Below are positions 53 to 8,426 of a stretch of 54,545 bases of DNA, one piece after another; the first letter of the stretch is position 1, and the number at the start of each line of letters is the position of its first letter. The stretch comes from Leptolyngbyaceae cyanobacterium C42_A2020_001 (GTDB lineage: Bacteria; Cyanobacteriota; Cyanobacteriia; Leptolyngbyales; Leptolyngbyaceae). The position numbers and the translations under genes were made by a program. The notes below the pieces were generated by a model that saw nothing but the letters and a program-made list of their open reading frames with translations, searched no databases and was not told the origin of the DNA. The stretch covers positions 1 through 54,545 of the forward strand of contig JACYLN010000102.1 of the NCBI GenBank assembly GCA_015272515.1, in the 5' to 3' direction.

Positions 53-416
53 GTAGTTACTGGTTGTTAATCACACACTAATTTAACGTGAGTTCATCGA
101 GATTAGAAAATCGTAGTGGGTAGAGGAAATAGACCTTTCAACTTCAAGTCTAAAAATGTTCAATCTCTGCGAGTCAATTCTCCGCAGCTATGCGGCATGA
201 AATGCAGAATGGGCGGAGTATATCCATAAAAGTCACAACGCACCCGTTTTACTTATTAAGAGTCAAATCCCTGGGTGTGGCGATGGATTATATTTTTCGT
301 AAAAGTTTTGTCCGGACTATTGTTTGTATGGCCTTGTTGAAACTCTGCTGTTAGTTTTCTTCTGTTTGGGGAATTCTAAGTTAACAAGTTTTTATCGGTT
401 TTATCGGGGGCATATT
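53..416. other. intergenic region upstream of the SSB-like gene
   Basis: No convincing coding frame is visible in this stretch. It holds a short GC-rich hairpin (CCGCA-GCTA-TGCGG, near 182-195) and presumably the promoter of the SSB-like gene. I see no recognisable RNA family. Confidence 0.5.
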
Positions 417-968
417 ATGTCGAGTGTTGGGCTAAATAAATGGATTGTTAGTGGACACTTAGCAGCAGACGCAGAGATCAAGACAGTTGATTTAAAGAGT
501 GGCGAAAAGGCTAAAGTTGCTAAAGCAACCATCTATGTTCGTAAGGCAAGAAGCCGGGATGAGTCTTTTACTGTTTCTTTGAGTATTTGGGAGGGAGCGA
601 CTGCTTGGCGAAAACTATCTTTTCTCAAAAAGGGTTCCCTGATTATCTGCACAGGTAGCCTAGAGCCTAACCCATATGTGTCTAGTACTGATAACCTGCC
701 GAGAGCGGGCTTATCGATGAACGTTTTAGATATTGATTTAGACAATGTTCGGAACTCTGAAGACGAAGAGCTTGCTTCTGAAGGTGATTCACAACCAGCG
801 GTTGCTGAGCAAGAGTTTTTATCTCAGCCAACAAACCAGAAATTGCAGGTCGAGAAAGTGAATGGAAAGCACTCTGCTAAATCTCAGCAGAGTGATGCAA
901 CACCAGGAGAAGCTAGGAATGCGGTGGTTTCTAGAGAAAGTCAGCAAAAACAGAAAGCCTCTGCATAA
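417..968 (+). CDS. single-stranded DNA-binding protein-like (OB fold)
   Basis: This 183-residue protein has an N-terminal OB-fold domain of the SSB type (about residues 1-110: it begins SSVGLNKWIVSGHLAADAE and continues with strand-rich segments). A polar, Gln/Ser-rich tail of about 70 residues follows. SSB-type proteins coat single-stranded DNA in replication and repair. The frame is open upstream to 324, but I chose the ATG at 417 because homology to the fold starts there and a G-rich ribosome site (GGGGG) lies just before it. The C-terminus ends QQKQKASA and lacks the acidic DDxPF-like tip through which housekeeping SSBs recruit partners. It is therefore probably a paralogue rather than the main SSB. 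Confidence 0.75.
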   Translation: MSSVGLNKWIVSGHLAADAEIKTVDLKSGEKAKVAKATIYVRKARSRDESFTVSLSIWEGATAWRKLSFLKKGSLIICTGSLEPNPYVSSTDNLPRAGLSMNVLDIDLDNVRNSEDEELASEGDSQPAVAEQEFLSQPTNQKLQVEKVNGKHSAKSQQSDATPGEARNAVVSRESQQKQKASA

Positions 969-1021: not shown

Positions 1022-2413
1022 TCAGCACTTTAAACTTTTGTCAATAGTTTGGCTGATGATGGAGGACGATCGCGCCTGAAAACCAGCTTGAGCGAGTGCC
1101 TGAACAGCAGTTTGGTAGTCTCGCACTCGAAATTGCGCTCCAAAACGGACGAACTGGCGTTTTTCTTGACTGCCAACGATCGCAACGACTGGGGTTTTTG
1201 CGCGTTCGTCTTCGCCTCGATTTTCTAGCAGTACTGTCCTTAGACGGTGTTGTTGTTCAATATCACCAGCAGTAGTAGGTTCTAGTTCAACCATCACCAT
1301 GTGAATTGCCTCGATTGGTTCTGCATCTTCCACGATGAATTGGGTTTGGTCGTCGCGTCGATCTACTTTGCCCCACAACATAAGGCGTGTGTCGGCTTGA
1401 ATATGTTCATGAATGCGCTCGTAGGATTTAGGGAAGATGACGGCTTCGGTGTGCCCGGTGATATCTTCAATTTGCAGAATTGCCATGCGATCGCCCTTTT
1501 TAGTAACAACCGGTTTGATCGAAGCGACGATGGCGATCGCGCTTACTGATGTACCATCTGCGTAATCTCCCAAGTCACTTAGGTTGACGGGAGCTAATAT
1601 ACGGGCAGCTTCGTGAATTGCGCGAAGCGGATGATCTGAGATATAGAAGCCTAAAATTTCCTTCTCCATTTGCAGTTTTTTAGGAGGAGGCAAATCAGGA
1701 ACGGGTGGTGCTTTCGGAGTTGAATCGAATGTGGCAGCAGTTTCTTGAACAGAACTATTGCCCATTAGATCAAATAGATTTCCTTGCCCACTGGCGCGAT
1801 CTTTTGCTCTAGATTGTGCCCATTCCAGCACCACTTCCAAATCATGAATTGACTGGTTGCGGTTGGGTTCAAGCTTGTCAAAGGCTCCAGAGTAGATTAA
1901 GGCTTCTAGGGCACGGCGGTTGAGAGCACGAGGATCGATGCGATCGCTCTCCGCACAAGCGACTCGCGCACATAAATCGGCCAGAGATTTGAAGGCTCCC
2001 TCTTCCTCTCTCACAATCAAAATTGCTTCAATTGCACCCATGCCTACGTTGCGAACTGCGGACAACCCAAACAGAATTGTTTCCCCAGTTGGCGTAAAGT
2101 CAATTCCCGAACGATTGATGTCGGGCGGTTCAACCTGAATTCCCATCGCCAGACAAGACGCAATGTATTTCTGCACCTTATCTTGATCACCACTGTTGAT
2201 TGTCAACAATGCCGCCATATATTCGACGGGGTAGTTGGCTTTGAGATAGGCAGTTTGGTAGGTTACATAGCCATAAGCGAAAGAATGTGACTTGTTAAAA
2301 CAATTAGAAGCAACAACTCCGTTGGCTAGAAGGAAATTGTGATCCTCTGATTGAACGCCAATATCAAAAACTGGCTGAGTTCCTAACAGCTTGCGACTAA
2401 TAATTTTAACCAT
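1022..2413 (-). CDS. dnaE: DNA polymerase III alpha subunit, C-terminal half, preceded by the C-part of the split DnaE intein
   Basis: Residues 1-37 are the C-intein (starts VKIISRKLLG, ends NGVVASN). The catalytic terminal Asn is residue 37 (codon 2303-2305). It is followed by the +1 extein Cys (2300-2302) and the FNKSHS context typical of the DnaE insertion site. The remaining 426 residues are the C-terminal part of the replicative polymerase: the end of the fingers region, a helix-hairpin-helix segment and an OB domain (TSVSAIAIVASIKPVV onward). After trans-splicing with the product of 4636-7263 the whole subunit would be about 1,192 residues, normal for cyanobacterial DnaE. A good AGGAG site precedes the ATG. 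It is the last gene of a four-gene co-directional block, starting 27 bp after the stop of the gene at 2441-3865. Confidence 0.97.
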   Translation of the reverse strand: MVKIISRKLLGTQPVFDIGVQSEDHNFLLANGVVASNCFNKSHSFAYGYVTYQTAYLKANYPVEYMAALLTINSGDQDKVQKYIASCLAMGIQVEPPDINRSGIDFTPTGETILFGLSAVRNVGMGAIEAILIVREEEGAFKSLADLCARVACAESDRIDPRALNRRALEALIYSGAFDKLEPNRNQSIHDLEVVLEWAQSRAKDRASGQGNLFDLMGNSSVQETAATFDSTPKAPPVPDLPPPKKLQMEKEILGFYISDHPLRAIHEAARILAPVNLSDLGDYADGTSVSAIAIVASIKPVVTKKGDRMAILQIEDITGHTEAVIFPKSYERIHEHIQADTRLMLWGKVDRRDDQTQFIVEDAEPIEAIHMVMVELEPTTAGDIEQQHRLRTVLLENRGEDERAKTPVVAIVGSQEKRQFVRFGAQFRVRDYQTAVQALAQAGFQARSSSIISQTIDKSLKC

Positions 2414-2440
2414 TTTCTCCTCTCTATTTAGCCTAGAAAA

Positions 2441-3865
2441 TCACAATGAAAGCGGCTCAGCCGGAATGATATACATCAAGTTTGATCCTTCAGGTAAAGG
2501 TTCTTTGGGTTTTAACTGCATCCAACCGTGAAAGGTAACACCAAGTTGCGAAATTGCTTTCACCTCTGCTTGGTAAGCTTCAAAACGGTAGCTTGTCTCA
2601 ATCATTGACTCCATCGTTTGTAGAACTTCTGGCAAGCGTCTCATTGCTTCTTGATTGGTCTCAGCCTTATTGCCCAGGATGCTACCTTTCACTTCAGATT
2701 TATCTACAATGGCTGGCGGAAGAGTGGTAACCCATCCATAACCAGACTCCTGTCCTTGATCTTTCTTCAAGTTGTATAAGCTTGCACGCAAAAGCTCAAA
2801 TACAGAATTCTCATTTGTTGAAGAGTCAATCCACTGATAGATTTTTGTTAGTCTTTGAAGATCAATTTGTCCTTTGAACTGTGGATGAAGATACGCAGCA
2901 GGATTGGATGTAAGCAATAGTTCAACATATTTTTGAATACGAGTACGAATTTTCTGAGAGCCTTCTTGAAATCTACGAATTGCTGTATCAAATTCTTCTA
3001 ATTCCAGATAGCACCGCGCTTCAGCAAGATAAGCTAAACATAAAGTCAGTAAATATTCATCTGTAATTTGACTCTTTTGCTCAAGTTCTTGATCTACAAA
3101 GTCAGTGTAAATGTGTTCAGCTTCTAAGAAGCGATTGATAGCTGCTAATGCGCTGCTTCTCCGATTTTCTACTTTGCTCATCGAAAAAGCATTAGCGGCT
3201 AGATCTAGCGCGGCTCGAAAATTTGCATAGAAACTGAGATCAATCTTTCGATTAACTTTATTTAACAGTTCCTGTGATCGCTGCAAACGCTGTTCTAATT
3301 CGCCGAGACAGTGAGCAATTACAGAAAAGCCGACAACTGAAACACCAAGATTAAGAATACTGCCAGCAGAAGACAAGCGTACCAGTCCCTCTACTTGTTG
3401 TAAGTTTTGTCCAATGAATCCTAACTGTTCTCCAACGCCATTCAATTTGTGATTTACATCAGAAAATCCTTTAATTGATACTCCAGTATTCACTCCTGAC
3501 ATTACTAAGTTGAGTACACCAGTAACAGGATCAATCATCATCGGAAGTTTAAGGCTTTGCGTAATACCTCCCAACTGCTGTCCTATTCCGTCTAAACGCT
3601 GATCTACGCTGAAAAACCCATCGCTCGTGAGTTTGGCGCTTCCTGCTGATGCACCCAAACTTAGTACATTGATGATGGTGTTGGTTAGAGAGCCAGGTAA
3701 AATGCCTGAACTTCCAGCTTCCCGAAGCATCACCACAATGCGTCCAGTCGCCGCTTCTCGAATTACACCGCCAAATCTTTTATACTTCCCAGTTGCCAGT
3801 CCTTCAACAATTTTTGGAGTAAGACGCAATGCTACTTCTAATGCTGCTGATGGCAATGTGACCAT
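2441..3865 (-). CDS. unrecognised protein with three internal Gly/hydrophobic repeats and a helical C-terminus
   Basis: This 474-residue protein has no function I can name. The N-terminus (MVTLPSAALEVALRLTPKIV) resembles a class of cyanobacterial hypothetical proteins that I remember only loosely. Between about residues 80 and 200 there are three degenerate repeats, each with a GF-x(4-7)-L-x-G-[IV]-[GE]-x-[QR]-L core. They are joined by small-residue-rich hydrophobic stretches that could insert in or lie on a membrane. The C-terminal half (about 200-420) is all-helical and TPR-like (YLAEARCYLELEEFDTAIRRFQEG). AGGAAG precedes the ATG. The gene lies between a Uma2-type gene and the C-half of dnaE on the same strand, so it may be co-transcribed with polymerase genes without being functionally related. 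Confidence 0.8.
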   Translation of the reverse strand: MVTLPSAALEVALRLTPKIVEGLATGKYKRFGGVIREAATGRIVVMLREAGSSGILPGSLTNTIINVLSLGASAGSAKLTSDGFFSVDQRLDGIGQQLGGITQSLKLPMMIDPVTGVLNLVMSGVNTGVSIKGFSDVNHKLNGVGEQLGFIGQNLQQVEGLVRLSSAGSILNLGVSVVGFSVIAHCLGELEQRLQRSQELLNKVNRKIDLSFYANFRAALDLAANAFSMSKVENRRSSALAAINRFLEAEHIYTDFVDQELEQKSQITDEYLLTLCLAYLAEARCYLELEEFDTAIRRFQEGSQKIRTRIQKYVELLLTSNPAAYLHPQFKGQIDLQRLTKIYQWIDSSTNENSVFELLRASLYNLKKDQGQESGYGWVTTLPPAIVDKSEVKGSILGNKAETNQEAMRRLPEVLQTMESMIETSYRFEAYQAEVKAISQLGVTFHGWMQLKPKEPLPEGSNLMYIIPAEPLSL

Positions 3866-3946
3866 TGTTGCTTCCTAAATCCTTCGATTTTCCCTCTTAT
3901 TCTTCCCTGTTCATTTGCCCAATTCTCATTTCTGACTGAACATTGT

Positions 3947-4612
3947 CTACTTCAATAACTCTTGCTGAATCCACGATCGCAACTCTTTGACAGCTTGAAC
4001 TTCGCTGATACGGGATTCTGTTAAAAATTGGTAGAGGCGAGTTTGGGGAGAAAATTGAAAGGTAGGACTAATTTCGACTTCTACATATTCGTGGTTTTGT
4101 AATTGATAAATCCGTAAAACTTGCCCGTCGAATCGCCAAAATTCGGGAACCCCAATGCTGGCATAGAAACGATTTTTGTCAATATCGGTGTGGGTAATAT
4201 CTATCTCGACGACAATATCTGGAGGTGGATCTTCGTTGAAGTTAACTGTGCGTCCTGCCAAGTTGGGTTGGTTTTGGATATAGAAGGCTTCATCGGGTTC
4301 AACACCCCTCTTTAACTCCGGATAGTTCATCGTGGTAGAACCCATCGTTTTCATATCGAAGTTTCTTGATTCGCTTAATACTTCCACCAAAATCCAAATA
4401 AAGCGTCCAATTAAACGTCCGATAAATTCGTGATCTTCACCGGGCATGGTCATCTCCAACGTGCCATCGTCGTAAATTAAGCGAGTGCTGCGAGTTTCGG
4501 GTAATGCCGCCAAAATTTGGAGATAGCCATTCCAGGTGACGTGATGGATCACAACTCGTTGTTCACCTTTCAATGTCAGGCTGGCAGTGGATTGAGGAGT
4601 AGTGCTAACCAT
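3947..4612 (-). CDS. Uma2 family (DUF820) putative endonuclease
   Basis: This 221-residue protein is of the Uma2/DUF820 family, which has a PD-(D/E)XK restriction-endonuclease-like fold and is multicopy in cyanobacteria; its biological role is unknown. Visible family marks are GVEPDEAF (Asp107), PPDIVVEID (Asp132 and Glu137 as the metal-binding pair) and IGVPEFWRFD near 153-162. GGAGG lies 8 bases before the ATG. It starts 23 bp after the stop of the dnaE N-half. It therefore occupies the gap between the two intein fragments, where an uninterrupted intein would carry a homing endonuclease. That position is suggestive only, because these genes are scattered throughout cyanobacterial genomes. 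Confidence 0.9.
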   Translation of the reverse strand: MVSTTPQSTASLTLKGEQRVVIHHVTWNGYLQILAALPETRSTRLIYDDGTLEMTMPGEDHEFIGRLIGRFIWILVEVLSESRNFDMKTMGSTTMNYPELKRGVEPDEAFYIQNQPNLAGRTVNFNEDPPPDIVVEIDITHTDIDKNRFYASIGVPEFWRFDGQVLRIYQLQNHEYVEVEISPTFQFSPQTRLYQFLTESRISEVQAVKELRSWIQQELLK

Positions 4613-4635
4613 GCGATCGCCTCCAGTGTGAGCAG

Positions 4636-7263
4636 CTATGCTTCAACGGTAACAGGTGCAACGACTTGAATTTGAATCTGCTGCAACTCCAAGCCTCGTG
4701 CAAAAATCTCGTCAATTGGCAACATTTGCCCCTCTACGGTCATGAATTTGTGATCTTTGGTGGCACGGAGCGTTGAACCGTCTTCGAGTTGGTATTCAAA
4801 GACTTCCTGCGAACCACGATCGTGCCATTGCAGGATCGGTTGGGTATAAACGTAACCAGATGGAGTGACGCTGTAAACAGTGCAGGGAAGACGCTTTTCC
4901 ACAATTTCACCGATCGCGATCTCTCCATATTCCACTGTCAAAATCGCTGTATTGTAACTGAGGCAATATTCGGCAAACTTGACCATCTGATCAAATAAGT
5001 CAGCGGCGACTTTCTTTTCTACGCCTCGCTCCTTCGCGCCACTTACAAAAATTTCTTGATGCTTTTGCATCTCAGACACTTTCTTTTTACCCATTGCCCG
5101 ACGCAAAAGGTCTGCTTGTCCGAGTGAGTAGCCTGCCATGTCCTGGGCAATTTTCATGATCTGTTCTTGGTAAACCATGATGCCGTAGGTTTCATTCAGG
5201 ATGGGTTGCAGAATTTCATGGGGATAGTCGATTTTTTCGCGACCGTGTTTACGATTGATGAATTTGGGAATCAATCCTGCGTCGAGTGGTCCGGGGCGAT
5301 AGAGGGCTAACACCGATGAAATATCTTCTAGCCCAGAGGGTTTGAGATCGCGCACAATCTGACGCATCCCAGATGACTCTAGCTGAAATACGCCTTCCAG
5401 TTCGCCACGGGCAAGCAGTTTGTAGGTTTCGGGGTCATCTAGGGGGAGGAGATCGAGATCAATTGCGGTGTTGCGAGCTTTTTCGATGAGGGCAACGGCT
5501 TTTTGGATCATGGTCAGGTTCTTGAGTCCCAAAAAGTCCATTTTGAGCAGACCCAGGGCTTCAATATCTTCCATGTAGTATTGGGTGAAAACGGCTCCGT
5601 CGTCGTTGCGTTGAAGCGGCACAATTTCATCCAGTGGTTGAGCGGAGATGACGACTCCAGCCGCGTGAATACCAACGCTTTTGTTAGTCCCTTCAATCCG
5701 CATTGCCATATCAATCCAGCGGCGATAGGGAATCGGTGGCTCGGTGCCAGGAACCATCAGGTCTTTGTCGTATTTCTCTTTAAATTCGGGTGAGGGCGTT
5801 TCATCCGAAATCATGACCTTAAGCTTGGTCGGTTTGCCGCGGACGACAGGGATCATTTTGGTCATGCGATCGCTCTCGCCGTAGGGGATGTTGAGCACTC
5901 GTGCCACATCTTTAAGCACGGCGCGGGAAGTCATGCGGTTATAAGTAATGATCTGAGCGACCCGCTCGGTGCCGTATTTTTCAGTGACGTATTGAATCAC
6001 CTCATCGCGGCGATCGATACAAAAGTCGGTGTCAATATCCGGCATGGATTTGCGTTCAGGGTTGAGAAACCGCTCGAACAGTAAGCCGTGGTGAACTGGG
6101 TCAATGTTGGTGATGCCCATAGCGTAGGCAACGAGAGAACCTGCGGCAGAACCACGTCCTGGACCTACGGGAATGCCCTGGTCACGGGCAAATTTAATGT
6201 AGTCCCAAACAACCAAAAAGTAGGTGGCAAACCCCATTTGCATCATCATTTGGAGTTCGTATTCCAGGCGATCGCGATAGTCTTGCCCAACCTCTTCCAG
6301 CGAGTTGCAGCGACGGCGTTGCACCAGTCCCTCTCGTGCGATTTCTTCAAGATAGGTGGCTGCGGTGTAGCCATCGGGAACGGGATAGTCGGGAATCCGT
6401 GGTTCTCCCAGGATGTCATAGGTTTCGATTTTGCTGGCGACTTCAAGGGTGTTGGCGATCGCCGCTTCAACCACATCTTCCGTCAGGTGATCGCGGAACA
6501 GAAAGCGCATCTCATCGGCAGACTTCAAATATTCGGTGCCCGTGTAGCGCAGGCGTTTGTCTTCCGTAATCAGCTTGCCCGTTTGAATGCACAGCAACGC
6601 ATCATGCGCTTCTACGTCGTAGCAGGAAATGTAGTGAGAGTCGTTAGTGCAGACAATCTTAATGTCAAGCTCCTGGGAGATTTTGACAATTTCAGGATTG
6701 ACGATACGCTCCTCACATAAGCCGTGGTCTTGAATTTCCAGATAGTAGTCATCTCCGAACAAATCCTTATACCATTGGGCAATGCGCCGCGCTACTTCAG
6801 GTCTGCCCTGCAAAATTGCTTGGGGAATTTCGCCACCGAGGCAGGCGGAGGTCACAATCAGACCTTCGTGATACTGCTCTAGCAATTCTTTGTTGATGCA
6901 GGGGCGTGAGAAAATGCCCTTGCCTTGAATACCTTTGAGGTTGGAAATGGTGGTAAGTTTGACCAGGTTTTTGTAGCCCAGAGTATTCTTCGCGAGCACA
7001 ACCTGATGGTAGCGGGGACGGCGTTCTTGCTTGGTGATGTCGCCGTTCATGATGTACATCTCGTTGCCGAGAATGGGTTTGACTGCGTCACCTTTGCTTT
7101 TACAGACCTTTAGCATCTCGATCGCACCGTACATCACGCCGTGATCCGTCAGGGCGATCGCGGGCATTCCTAACTCAATAGCGCGATCAATGAGCTGCGG
7201 GATCTGACTTGCCCCATCCAGCAAACTGTAATCACTGTGAATGTGCAGACCAACAAAGGACAT
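4636..7263 (-). CDS. dnaE: DNA polymerase III alpha subunit, N-terminal half, followed by the N-part of the split DnaE intein
   Basis: Residues 1-766 are the N-extein: a PHP domain ([11 protein letters not shown] at 7-17), then the polymerase palm with PGRGSAAGS (368-376) and the catalytic PDIDTDF (408-414). At residue 767 (codon 4963-4965), after KFAEY, the N-intein begins with the nucleophilic Cys and [14 protein letters not shown]. It has block B (ATKDHKF) and ends [12 protein letters not shown] plus a short tail, 109 residues in all. The lengths and insertion site match the Synechocystis and Nostoc split DnaE inteins. The product ligates to the C-half encoded at 1022-2413 by protein trans-splicing. 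The stop is 23 bp before the Uma2-type gene. The upstream region is shared with the divergent bestrophin gene. Confidence 0.98.
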
Positions 7264-7472: not shown

Positions 7473-8426
7473 ATGGAACGACGACACTGGTTTAGCATTG
7501 CCTTGCAAGTCAAAGGCTCCGTCATTCCTTCCATTCTTGGGCGTACATTGATTTGCGGTTTGTTTGGGGTGCTGATTTCGATCCTGTTTTACTACAGAAC
7601 TCCAGTATCGCTTCCGATATTAGCCAGTCTTATTCCCAATATTGTGTTGGGGTTGCTGTTAGTGTTTCGGACGAACACCGCTTATGAACGTTTTTGGGAA
7701 GGGCGTAAGCTGTGGGGCACGATTGTTAACACGACGCGCAATCTGGCACGCCATATCTGGATCGTGGTACCTGCAAAAAGTGATGCCGATCGCCACGGAA
7801 AAATTGCCGCCCTGCGATCGCTAGTTGCCTTTGCTGTTGCCACCAAACTACACCTGCGTCAGGAACCTGTGAACGACGAACTAGAGGGATTGCTGACCCC
7901 TGAGAAGTTTCAGAAACTTAAGAGGATGAACAATCCGCCGCTAGAAGTAGCATTTTGGATTGGCGATTACTTGCAGAATCAATACAAACATCAGTCGATT
8001 GACAGTTACCAGCTCACTGCAATGCAAGAGTTGCTCAATGGGCTAGTTGATTGCCTGGGGGGGTGCGAACGAATTCTAAAAACTCCCATGCCACTCGCCT
8101 ATTCGATTCACCTGAAGCAGTTGATCTTGCTGTATTGCCTGTCGTTGCCGTTTCAAATGGTTGGTAGTTTGCAATGGTGGACTGGACCCGTTGTGGCGTT
8201 GATTAGCTTTACGCTGTTTGGCATTGAAGAGATTGGAATTGAGATTGAAAATCCGTTTGGGCGCGACCCTAACGACCTCCCACTAGATGCAATTTGCGAA
8301 ACAATGCTCCGTAACATTCATGATCTGATTACGCTTACTCCCTGCACAGATGTAAATTCCTCAGACCATGAAGAGACCCAACGGACTCTCAGCGGCATTC
8401 ATCCAGACGCTAGCCCAATGAGATAA
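7473..8426 (+). CDS. bestrophin-like chloride/anion channel
   Basis: This 317-residue membrane protein of the bestrophin family (RFP-TM, formerly UPF0187) has several hydrophobic segments: 20-40, 46-65, and a pair near 205-255. It carries the family-typical stretch FRTNTAYERFWEGRKLWG (about 68-85), in which Arg and Trp residues are conserved. Bacterial bestrophins are pentameric ion channels. In cyanobacteria and chloroplasts some family members are linked to thylakoid ion balance and bicarbonate supply, but assigning that here would be inference. The gene is convergent with the [2Fe-2S] protein gene, and the two coding regions overlap by 17 bp at their 3' ends. Confidence 0.9.
   Translation: MERRHWFSIALQVKGSVIPSILGRTLICGLFGVLISILFYYRTPVSLPILASLIPNIVLGLLLVFRTNTAYERFWEGRKLWGTIVNTTRNLARHIWIVVPAKSDADRHGKIAALRSLVAFAVATKLHLRQEPVNDELEGLLTPEKFQKLKRMNNPPLEVAFWIGDYLQNQYKHQSIDSYQLTAMQELLNGLVDCLGGCERILKTPMPLAYSIHLKQLILLYCLSLPFQMVGSLQWWTGPVVALISFTLFGIEEIGIEIENPFGRDPNDLPLDAICETMLRNIHDLITLTPCTDVNSSDHEETQRTLSGIHPDASPMR

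Follow-up and report, generated by a model that had tools for sequence, protein, structure and literature searches.

How do the two halves of a split intein come to lie side by side, and what does the stretch between them reveal about the way in which inteins become split? The question is raised by a stretch of 54,545 nucleotides (here, the window) from Leptolyngbyaceae cyanobacterium C42_A2020_001, a complete contig (JACYLN010000102.1) of a 5.55-Mb draft genome (G000). It carries the DnaE intein, the textbook split intein, which divides the gene for DNA polymerase III alpha into dnaE-N, encoding the N-extein and the N-terminal intein part (IntN), and dnaE-C, encoding the C-terminal intein part (IntC) and the C-extein. 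We find that the two halves are the ends of one cassette, consisting of IntN, its stop codon, cargo and IntC, in an otherwise ordinary dnaE. Comparison with relatives suggests that the split DnaE intein may have started as a mobile homing element.

The cassette is delimited by an empty site in the same genus. On one contig, genome G002 carries an uninterrupted, inteinless DnaE frame of 1189 codons, and its alignment with the window runs from the upstream genes to the end of the N-extein, breaks, and restarts at the +1 Cys codon to continue through an SSB-like gene. The insertion point falls between Tyr766 and the +1 Cys, and the 2,663-bp insert comprises exactly IntN, a Uma2-family gene, a 474-amino-acid (aa) gene and IntC. 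The window and G002 are thus filled and empty alleles at one exact site, as is characteristic of a mobile element. In six more filled/empty pairs (G032/G005, G033/G023, G292/G234, G187/G234, G107/G046 and G012/G024), with inserts of 789 to 2,517 bp, homology breaks off no more than about 25 bases from this junction, and the cassettes of 26 genomes with adjacent halves measure 580 to 8,603 bp. A first-pass annotation of the window overlooked the same-genus inteinless allele, the exact insertion of the cassette and the frequent changes of state described below.

At the protein level, judging from its residues and family matches, the intein of the window is an ordinary split DnaE intein. Its layout, two genes (N-extein plus IntN and IntC plus C-extein) at the Tyr|Cys site of dnaE, fits this class, and Cys1, TxxH, the terminal Asn and the +1 Cys are all present, the ATKDH of IntN being what we take to be the TxxH motif. 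dnaE-N and dnaE-C pass the NCBIfam DNA polymerase III alpha equivalogs PRK09532 (876 positions) and PRK07373 (449 positions), respectively, and the intein end-domain models TIGR01445 (N-terminal) and TIGR01443 (C-terminal) match as well. The first-pass annotation had placed Cys767, the terminal Asn and the +1 Cys correctly (codons TGC, AAT and TGT, the last at 2300-2302), and its coordinates for the two halves, on the same strand with two genes between, and its intergenic gaps of 23, 81 and 27 bp agree with our recomputation. Ssp DnaE of Synechocystis and Npu DnaE of Nostoc have the same gene and split layout, which the NCBIfam half-length and intein-end models also detect in the window; the insertion and split points are presumably identical. 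In contrast to Ssp and Npu DnaE, the halves in the window share a strand and are separated by 2.2 kb that hold two genes. From the residues and the family, the two window genes would be expected to produce two DnaE fragments that are joined by intein trans-splicing. Co-transcription of both halves seems plausible; between positions 900 and 7600 the coding strand contains no terminator-like sites, and the six promoter-like sites there are no excess over the shuffled mean of 8.4. Two concerns raised at the first pass are largely allayed. No second, distant dnaE half was seen in the genome search, which found a single DnaE polymerase domain and matched each half once, and an assembly error is unlikely because Tildeniella nuda (G032) has the N half, a 71% identical Uma2 gene and the C half in the same order.

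The proximity of the halves had been taken as unusual, but adjacency itself proves to be ordinary, an outcome that the first-pass annotation had itself listed as counting against its reading. We counted by hand 58 relatives, calling halves adjacent when N precedes C on one strand within 10 kb. Both halves could be placed in 20 split genomes, half of which (10) have them adjacent; 35 relatives have an intact, inteinless dnaE, two have one half (G001, G019) and one is unresolved (G034). A survey of 388 genomes of the class, which lists roughly the top 150 matches of each search and favours genomes close to the query, adds at least 48 split genomes with both halves. In 16 the halves are adjacent, in six they lie nearby but are ordered or oriented differently, and in 26 they are far from each other or on separate contigs, the latter an arrangement that in drafts may conceal adjacency. 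Across the relatives and the class matches listed, adjacent same-order halves occur in 26 of 68 split genomes. Among the named loci that we inspected (80 of 336, some duplicating surveyed genomes), 17 are adjacent and split, three are unsplit, 50 have no N half within the 3 kb or more of upstream sequence covered and 10 are not judgeable.

Several loci show other local arrangements. In four genomes (G088, G131, G168, G076) of genus g46 (L100, L101), the order is C then N, with both halves on one strand and the C half ~10 kb before the N half. Halves in opposite orientation lie 15 kb apart in L088 (G204) and 6 kb apart in L094 (G180), and are perhaps local inversions en route to separation. In G278, a stump of the 474-aa gene is repeated at both contig ends (L103 1-346 and L102 4218-4432), so the contig break probably falls within the gap of dnaE, and adjacency of the halves is probable there too. 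Three additional short copies of the IntN end, 61-64% identical, lie downstream of dnaE-N at G056:C24:20434-22194, as if the 3' end of dnaE-N had been repeatedly duplicated.

Some gaps, of ~750-800 bp, hold a gene for a ~260-aa LAGLIDADG protein, a putative homing endonuclease (HEN). Such gaps occur in G039, G140, G144, G175 and the named metagenome-assembled genomes Planktothrix UBA8402 and Microcoleus bin48. Pfam LAGLIDADG_3 is found at all six loci and a below-cut-off helix-turn-helix (HTH) match at one; the sole solved-structure match is the putative homing endonuclease 2dch (E 4e-4). Measured from the end of the IntN stop, the first possible start of the gene ranges from 25 bases before to 2 bases beyond it. 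In five of the six loci the gene overlaps the IntC start, its stop beginning 5 bases past the first base of that start codon, whereas the G039 gene ends about 30 bases short of it. Ratios of nonsynonymous to synonymous divergence (dN/dS) are 0.12-0.18 in the three pairs with unsaturated dS, which places the HEN under purifying selection. In Microseira wollei the copy is frame-shifted. Seven of the 388 genomes have HEN matches, six of them at the dnaE halves: four full genes between the halves, a copy broken by contig edges in G090 and a tail beside dnaE-C in G380. The seventh, a remote 27% match in G058, is located away from dnaE; within this set, close relatives of the HEN occur only at the dnaE split site. 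Among 101 IntC loci, L255 and L234 have a clear HEN tail immediately before IntC, and L306 and L287 a weak one. L234 belongs to the Planktothrix rubescens PCC7821 chromosome (G380), where the N half is about 1.6 Mb from the C half.

Two kinds of known element resemble these loci. Homing inteins usually have a LAGLIDADG domain nested in the middle of the intein, the position that the HEN takes in the DnaE relatives; there, by contrast, the endonuclease has a gene to itself, complete with start and stop codons, and the intein is split around that gene. Fractured genes, which are broken by a split intein and have a free-standing endonuclease gene between the halves, were reportedly described by Dassa et al. 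in 2009, with an endonuclease of a family other than LAGLIDADG. A broken gene, a split intein and an endonuclease between the halves are likewise found in relatives of the window, whose enzyme is a LAGLIDADG protein (with the weak HTH match in one). The window shares with fractured genes its adjoining, co-directional halves, but it lacks such an endonuclease and is therefore not classed as a fractured homing element, only as a likely descendant.

We consider it probable that the split DnaE intein cassette is a decayed fractured homing intein, spread by homing and removed by recombination, which lost its endonuclease in the lineage of the window and whose halves were dispersed elsewhere. The ancestor would have had a free-standing LAGLIDADG gene between the halves, with a stop overlapping the IntC start, as is still seen in the loci of other families described above. 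While active, the endonuclease could copy the cassette into intact dnaE alleles, and homologous recombination with intact alleles could remove it; gain by homing and removal by recombination would explain repeated changes of state. In the window lineage, the endonuclease of this family would have disappeared, and the gap is now taken up by the Uma2 gene and a partly JukB-like gene; in other lineages rearrangement would later have moved the halves apart. The first-pass suggestion that adjacency is ancestral fits this proposal, as adjacency looks old for three reasons. First, in several families an HEN gene or its tail separates the halves or adjoins them. Second, an HEN tail directly precedes the C half in the Planktothrix genome with distant halves. 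Finally, the Uma2 genes of the window's subfamily next to dnaE-N fall into one group across three families (support 91/86).

The state changes often on the extein tree. On a tree of 84 hand-picked DnaE exteins (52 split, 32 intact; four of 88 were dropped), the split/intact state requires 23 changes, and starred branches force 19 of these. There is hardly any clustering, as 68 of 500 shuffles (mean 25.8) are as low. With a midpoint root and a simple model, gain plus loss reaches a log likelihood of -54.1, as against -65.2 for loss only and -65.1 for gain only. The window DnaE is sister to that of the intact G002 (support 100), within a clade holding three further intact genomes, and on the N-extein tree G001, the third and split member of the genus, is sister to this pair (99/95). 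On the intein tree, by contrast, the nearest intein is that of G007 (96/90), a mild disagreement that approximately unbiased (AU) cross tests on 16 genomes register in both directions (extein against G000 plus G007, p 0.034; intein against the extein clade, p 0.014).

The principal rival explanation is vertical decay, that is, a single ancient split, initially adjacent, with intact dnaE restored by rare recombination with inteinless alleles, neutral cargo and no recent homing. We regard it as possible but doubtful. It draws on several results, most of which also weigh against a homing origin. The intein tree largely tracks host families (18 changes against a minimum of 12 and a shuffled mean of 35.3), and intein and extein distances correlate across the 52 split genomes (Mantel r 0.55). 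Intein/extein distance ratios of the window's pairs are unremarkable. The Uma2 grouping described above speaks for long residence, and exchange tracts beside the junction were sought in G000/G002 and G234/G187 without success, so that the data do not choose between loss of the cassette by G002 and its gain by G000. Other observations sit uneasily with a homing ancestor. The best candidate for an HEN remnant in the window gap is at chance level (E 1.5), HEN coding sequence stands at the halves in only five of 167 intein-bearing genomes (four complete, one cut by contig edges), with one more as a tail, and HEN loci are hardly tighter on the intein tree than in shuffles (111 of 500 as low), a scatter that fits old presence with losses but repeated arrival as well. 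The hand selection of the extein-tree genomes must also be borne in mind. Vertical decay, for its part, has to contend with a loss-only model that is 11 log units worse than gain plus loss, with the purifying selection on the HEN and with the conflict between extein and intein of the window. Taken together, the Mantel correlation and the mild AU conflict point to inheritance that is mostly vertical with some exchange.

Unsplit inteins complicate the order of events. An unsplit DnaE intein occupies the usually split site in L246 (7301-11413), L323 (G334) and L281 (6074-11515), in L246 and G334 within a single open frame with both extein parts; besides the named loci, one of the 167 intein-bearing class genomes among the matches listed has such an intein. 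These inteins nest within split ones, the L246/G334 type among Planktothrix split inteins, so that unsplit forms need not have come before split ones and the L246/G334 type may be a re-fusion. This, too, counts against the homing origin as we have drawn it. The DnaE frame of L281 (Oscillatoria sp. HE19RPO) exceeds expectation by ~450 aa even without the cis intein, and a second intein may therefore lie upstream.

A further alternative, which we judge unlikely, is that the gap mainly gives small defence or toxin-antitoxin genes a safe place to insert within an essential gene, and is retained for the value of this cargo. Among the 26 adjacent gaps, eight contain Uma2 genes, three contain partly JukB-like genes and two contain PD-(D/E)XK-like genes, and MazE/PIN, PemK, D12 methylase, SLFN_AlbA_2 (Schlafen-like) and XisI each occur in a single gap; three hold the LAGLIDADG gene. 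The window Uma2 protein scores 75.2 bits against Pfam PF05685 (cut-off 27). Its subfamily is represented beside dnaE-N by eight genes from seven genomes, two of which (G011 and G278) have the C half on another contig. These eight form the group cited above, on a branch that is not starred, in a tree that omits the second-subfamily genes of G083, G103 and G113; the lone outsider in the group, from 25 other Uma2 genes tested, is the copy of G007. In that genome the halves are apart, and the Uma2 gene has two notable neighbours, one related to the 474-aa gene and the other PD-(D/E)XK-like, the latter sharing 56-58% identity with gap genes in another family. Against selective retention, Uma2 is common genome-wide (44 of the 58 relatives at E 1e-35), so its presence in a gap is no proof of function, and several gaps (G003, G012, G051, G201 and the G055 group) hold unrelated or no recognised genes. 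In family f22 (L071, L098, L099), the gaps span 6-8 kb and contain long genes on the strand opposite dnaE, which by eye, without a family search, look kinase-like or, in another case, start like a FAD-dependent carotenoid enzyme.

The 474-aa protein matches the PADLOC model of JukB, from the Juk system (PMC13282480), at 7.9e-13. The match is not full-length but limited to residues 9-162, one third of the protein, which leaves two thirds unmatched, and relatives of the protein match more weakly (5e-9 to 8e-5). No Pfam or NCBIfam family matches it, and a predicted fold was discarded (single sequence, pLDDT 34.6). Similar genes are full-length-like in the gaps of G172 and G083 and reduced to a stump in G032 and G278, and in G013 a relative lies 0.9 kb after dnaE-N. 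No PADLOC model matched the six neighbouring genes of the window that were searched, so no JukA gene was seen among them, insofar as that library has a JukA model.

More speculatively, the unit from IntN through cargo to IntC could be a live mobile element carrying defence-like passengers, in which Uma2 replaced the lost LAGLIDADG enzyme as homing nuclease in the window lineage; the split intein would render a multi-kb insertion in an essential polymerase gene harmless and so allow passengers to be carried. We think this improbable. The second option of the first-pass annotation, that halves long parted were reunited in the window lineage, is scarcely credible and was rejected, as nothing was found in its favour, both flanks are shared with the G002 empty site, which puts the halves at the original place of dnaE, and related Uma2 genes stand beside dnaE-N in three families.

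Table 1. Genes, intein parts and flanks of the dnaE locus in the window
Feature	Coordinates	Strand	Remarks
dnaE-N	4636..7263	-	875 aa; 766-residue N-extein of DNA polymerase III alpha, IntN and stop
IntN	4639..4965	-	109 codons; Cys1 (Cys767) at 4963-4965; TxxH in ATKDH
Uma2-family gene	3947..4612	-	221 aa; putative restriction endonuclease; PADLOC candidate PDC-S17
474-aa gene	2441..3865	-	Residues 9-162 resemble PADLOC JukB (Juk anti-phage system)
dnaE-C	1022..2413	-	463 aa; IntC (37 residues) and 426-residue C-extein
IntC	2303..2413	-	Last residue Asn, 2303-2305
Complete cassette, IntN to IntC	2303..4965	-	Exactly 2,663 bp; missing from the G002 empty site
SSB-like gene, downstream flank	324..968	+	Retained beside intact dnaE in G002
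Bestrophin gene, upstream flank	7473..8426	+	Retained beside dnaE in G002 and dnaE-N in G001

The SSB-like gene lies directly downstream of dnaE-C in convergent orientation and scores below the Pfam SSB cut-off.

More broadly, the literature, in the portions surveyed, regards split DnaE as a stable trait, takes it to mark a clade or describes two genes far from each other. Passages of one article cite it as a case of neutral complexity and an ‘evolutionarily stable arrangement’ (PMC3403396), and a passage of another calls it a ‘rare genetic characteristic’ that marks a clade (PMC2823733). These portions contain no mention of an endonuclease gene between DnaE halves, which is no proof of novelty, as Caspi 2003 and Dassa 2009 lie outside the survey. 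The frequent changes of state among close relatives and an intact gene within the same genus point away from a stable clade marker. What stands out is that the genus of the window includes an empty allele and that close relatives of the endonuclease were found only at the split site, adjacency itself being ordinary. One and the same intein survives unsplit, with an endonuclease, with cargo and with its halves dispersed. These surviving forms open the splitting of inteins to direct tests, and the natural pairs, including unsplit DnaE inteins, are available for protein engineering.

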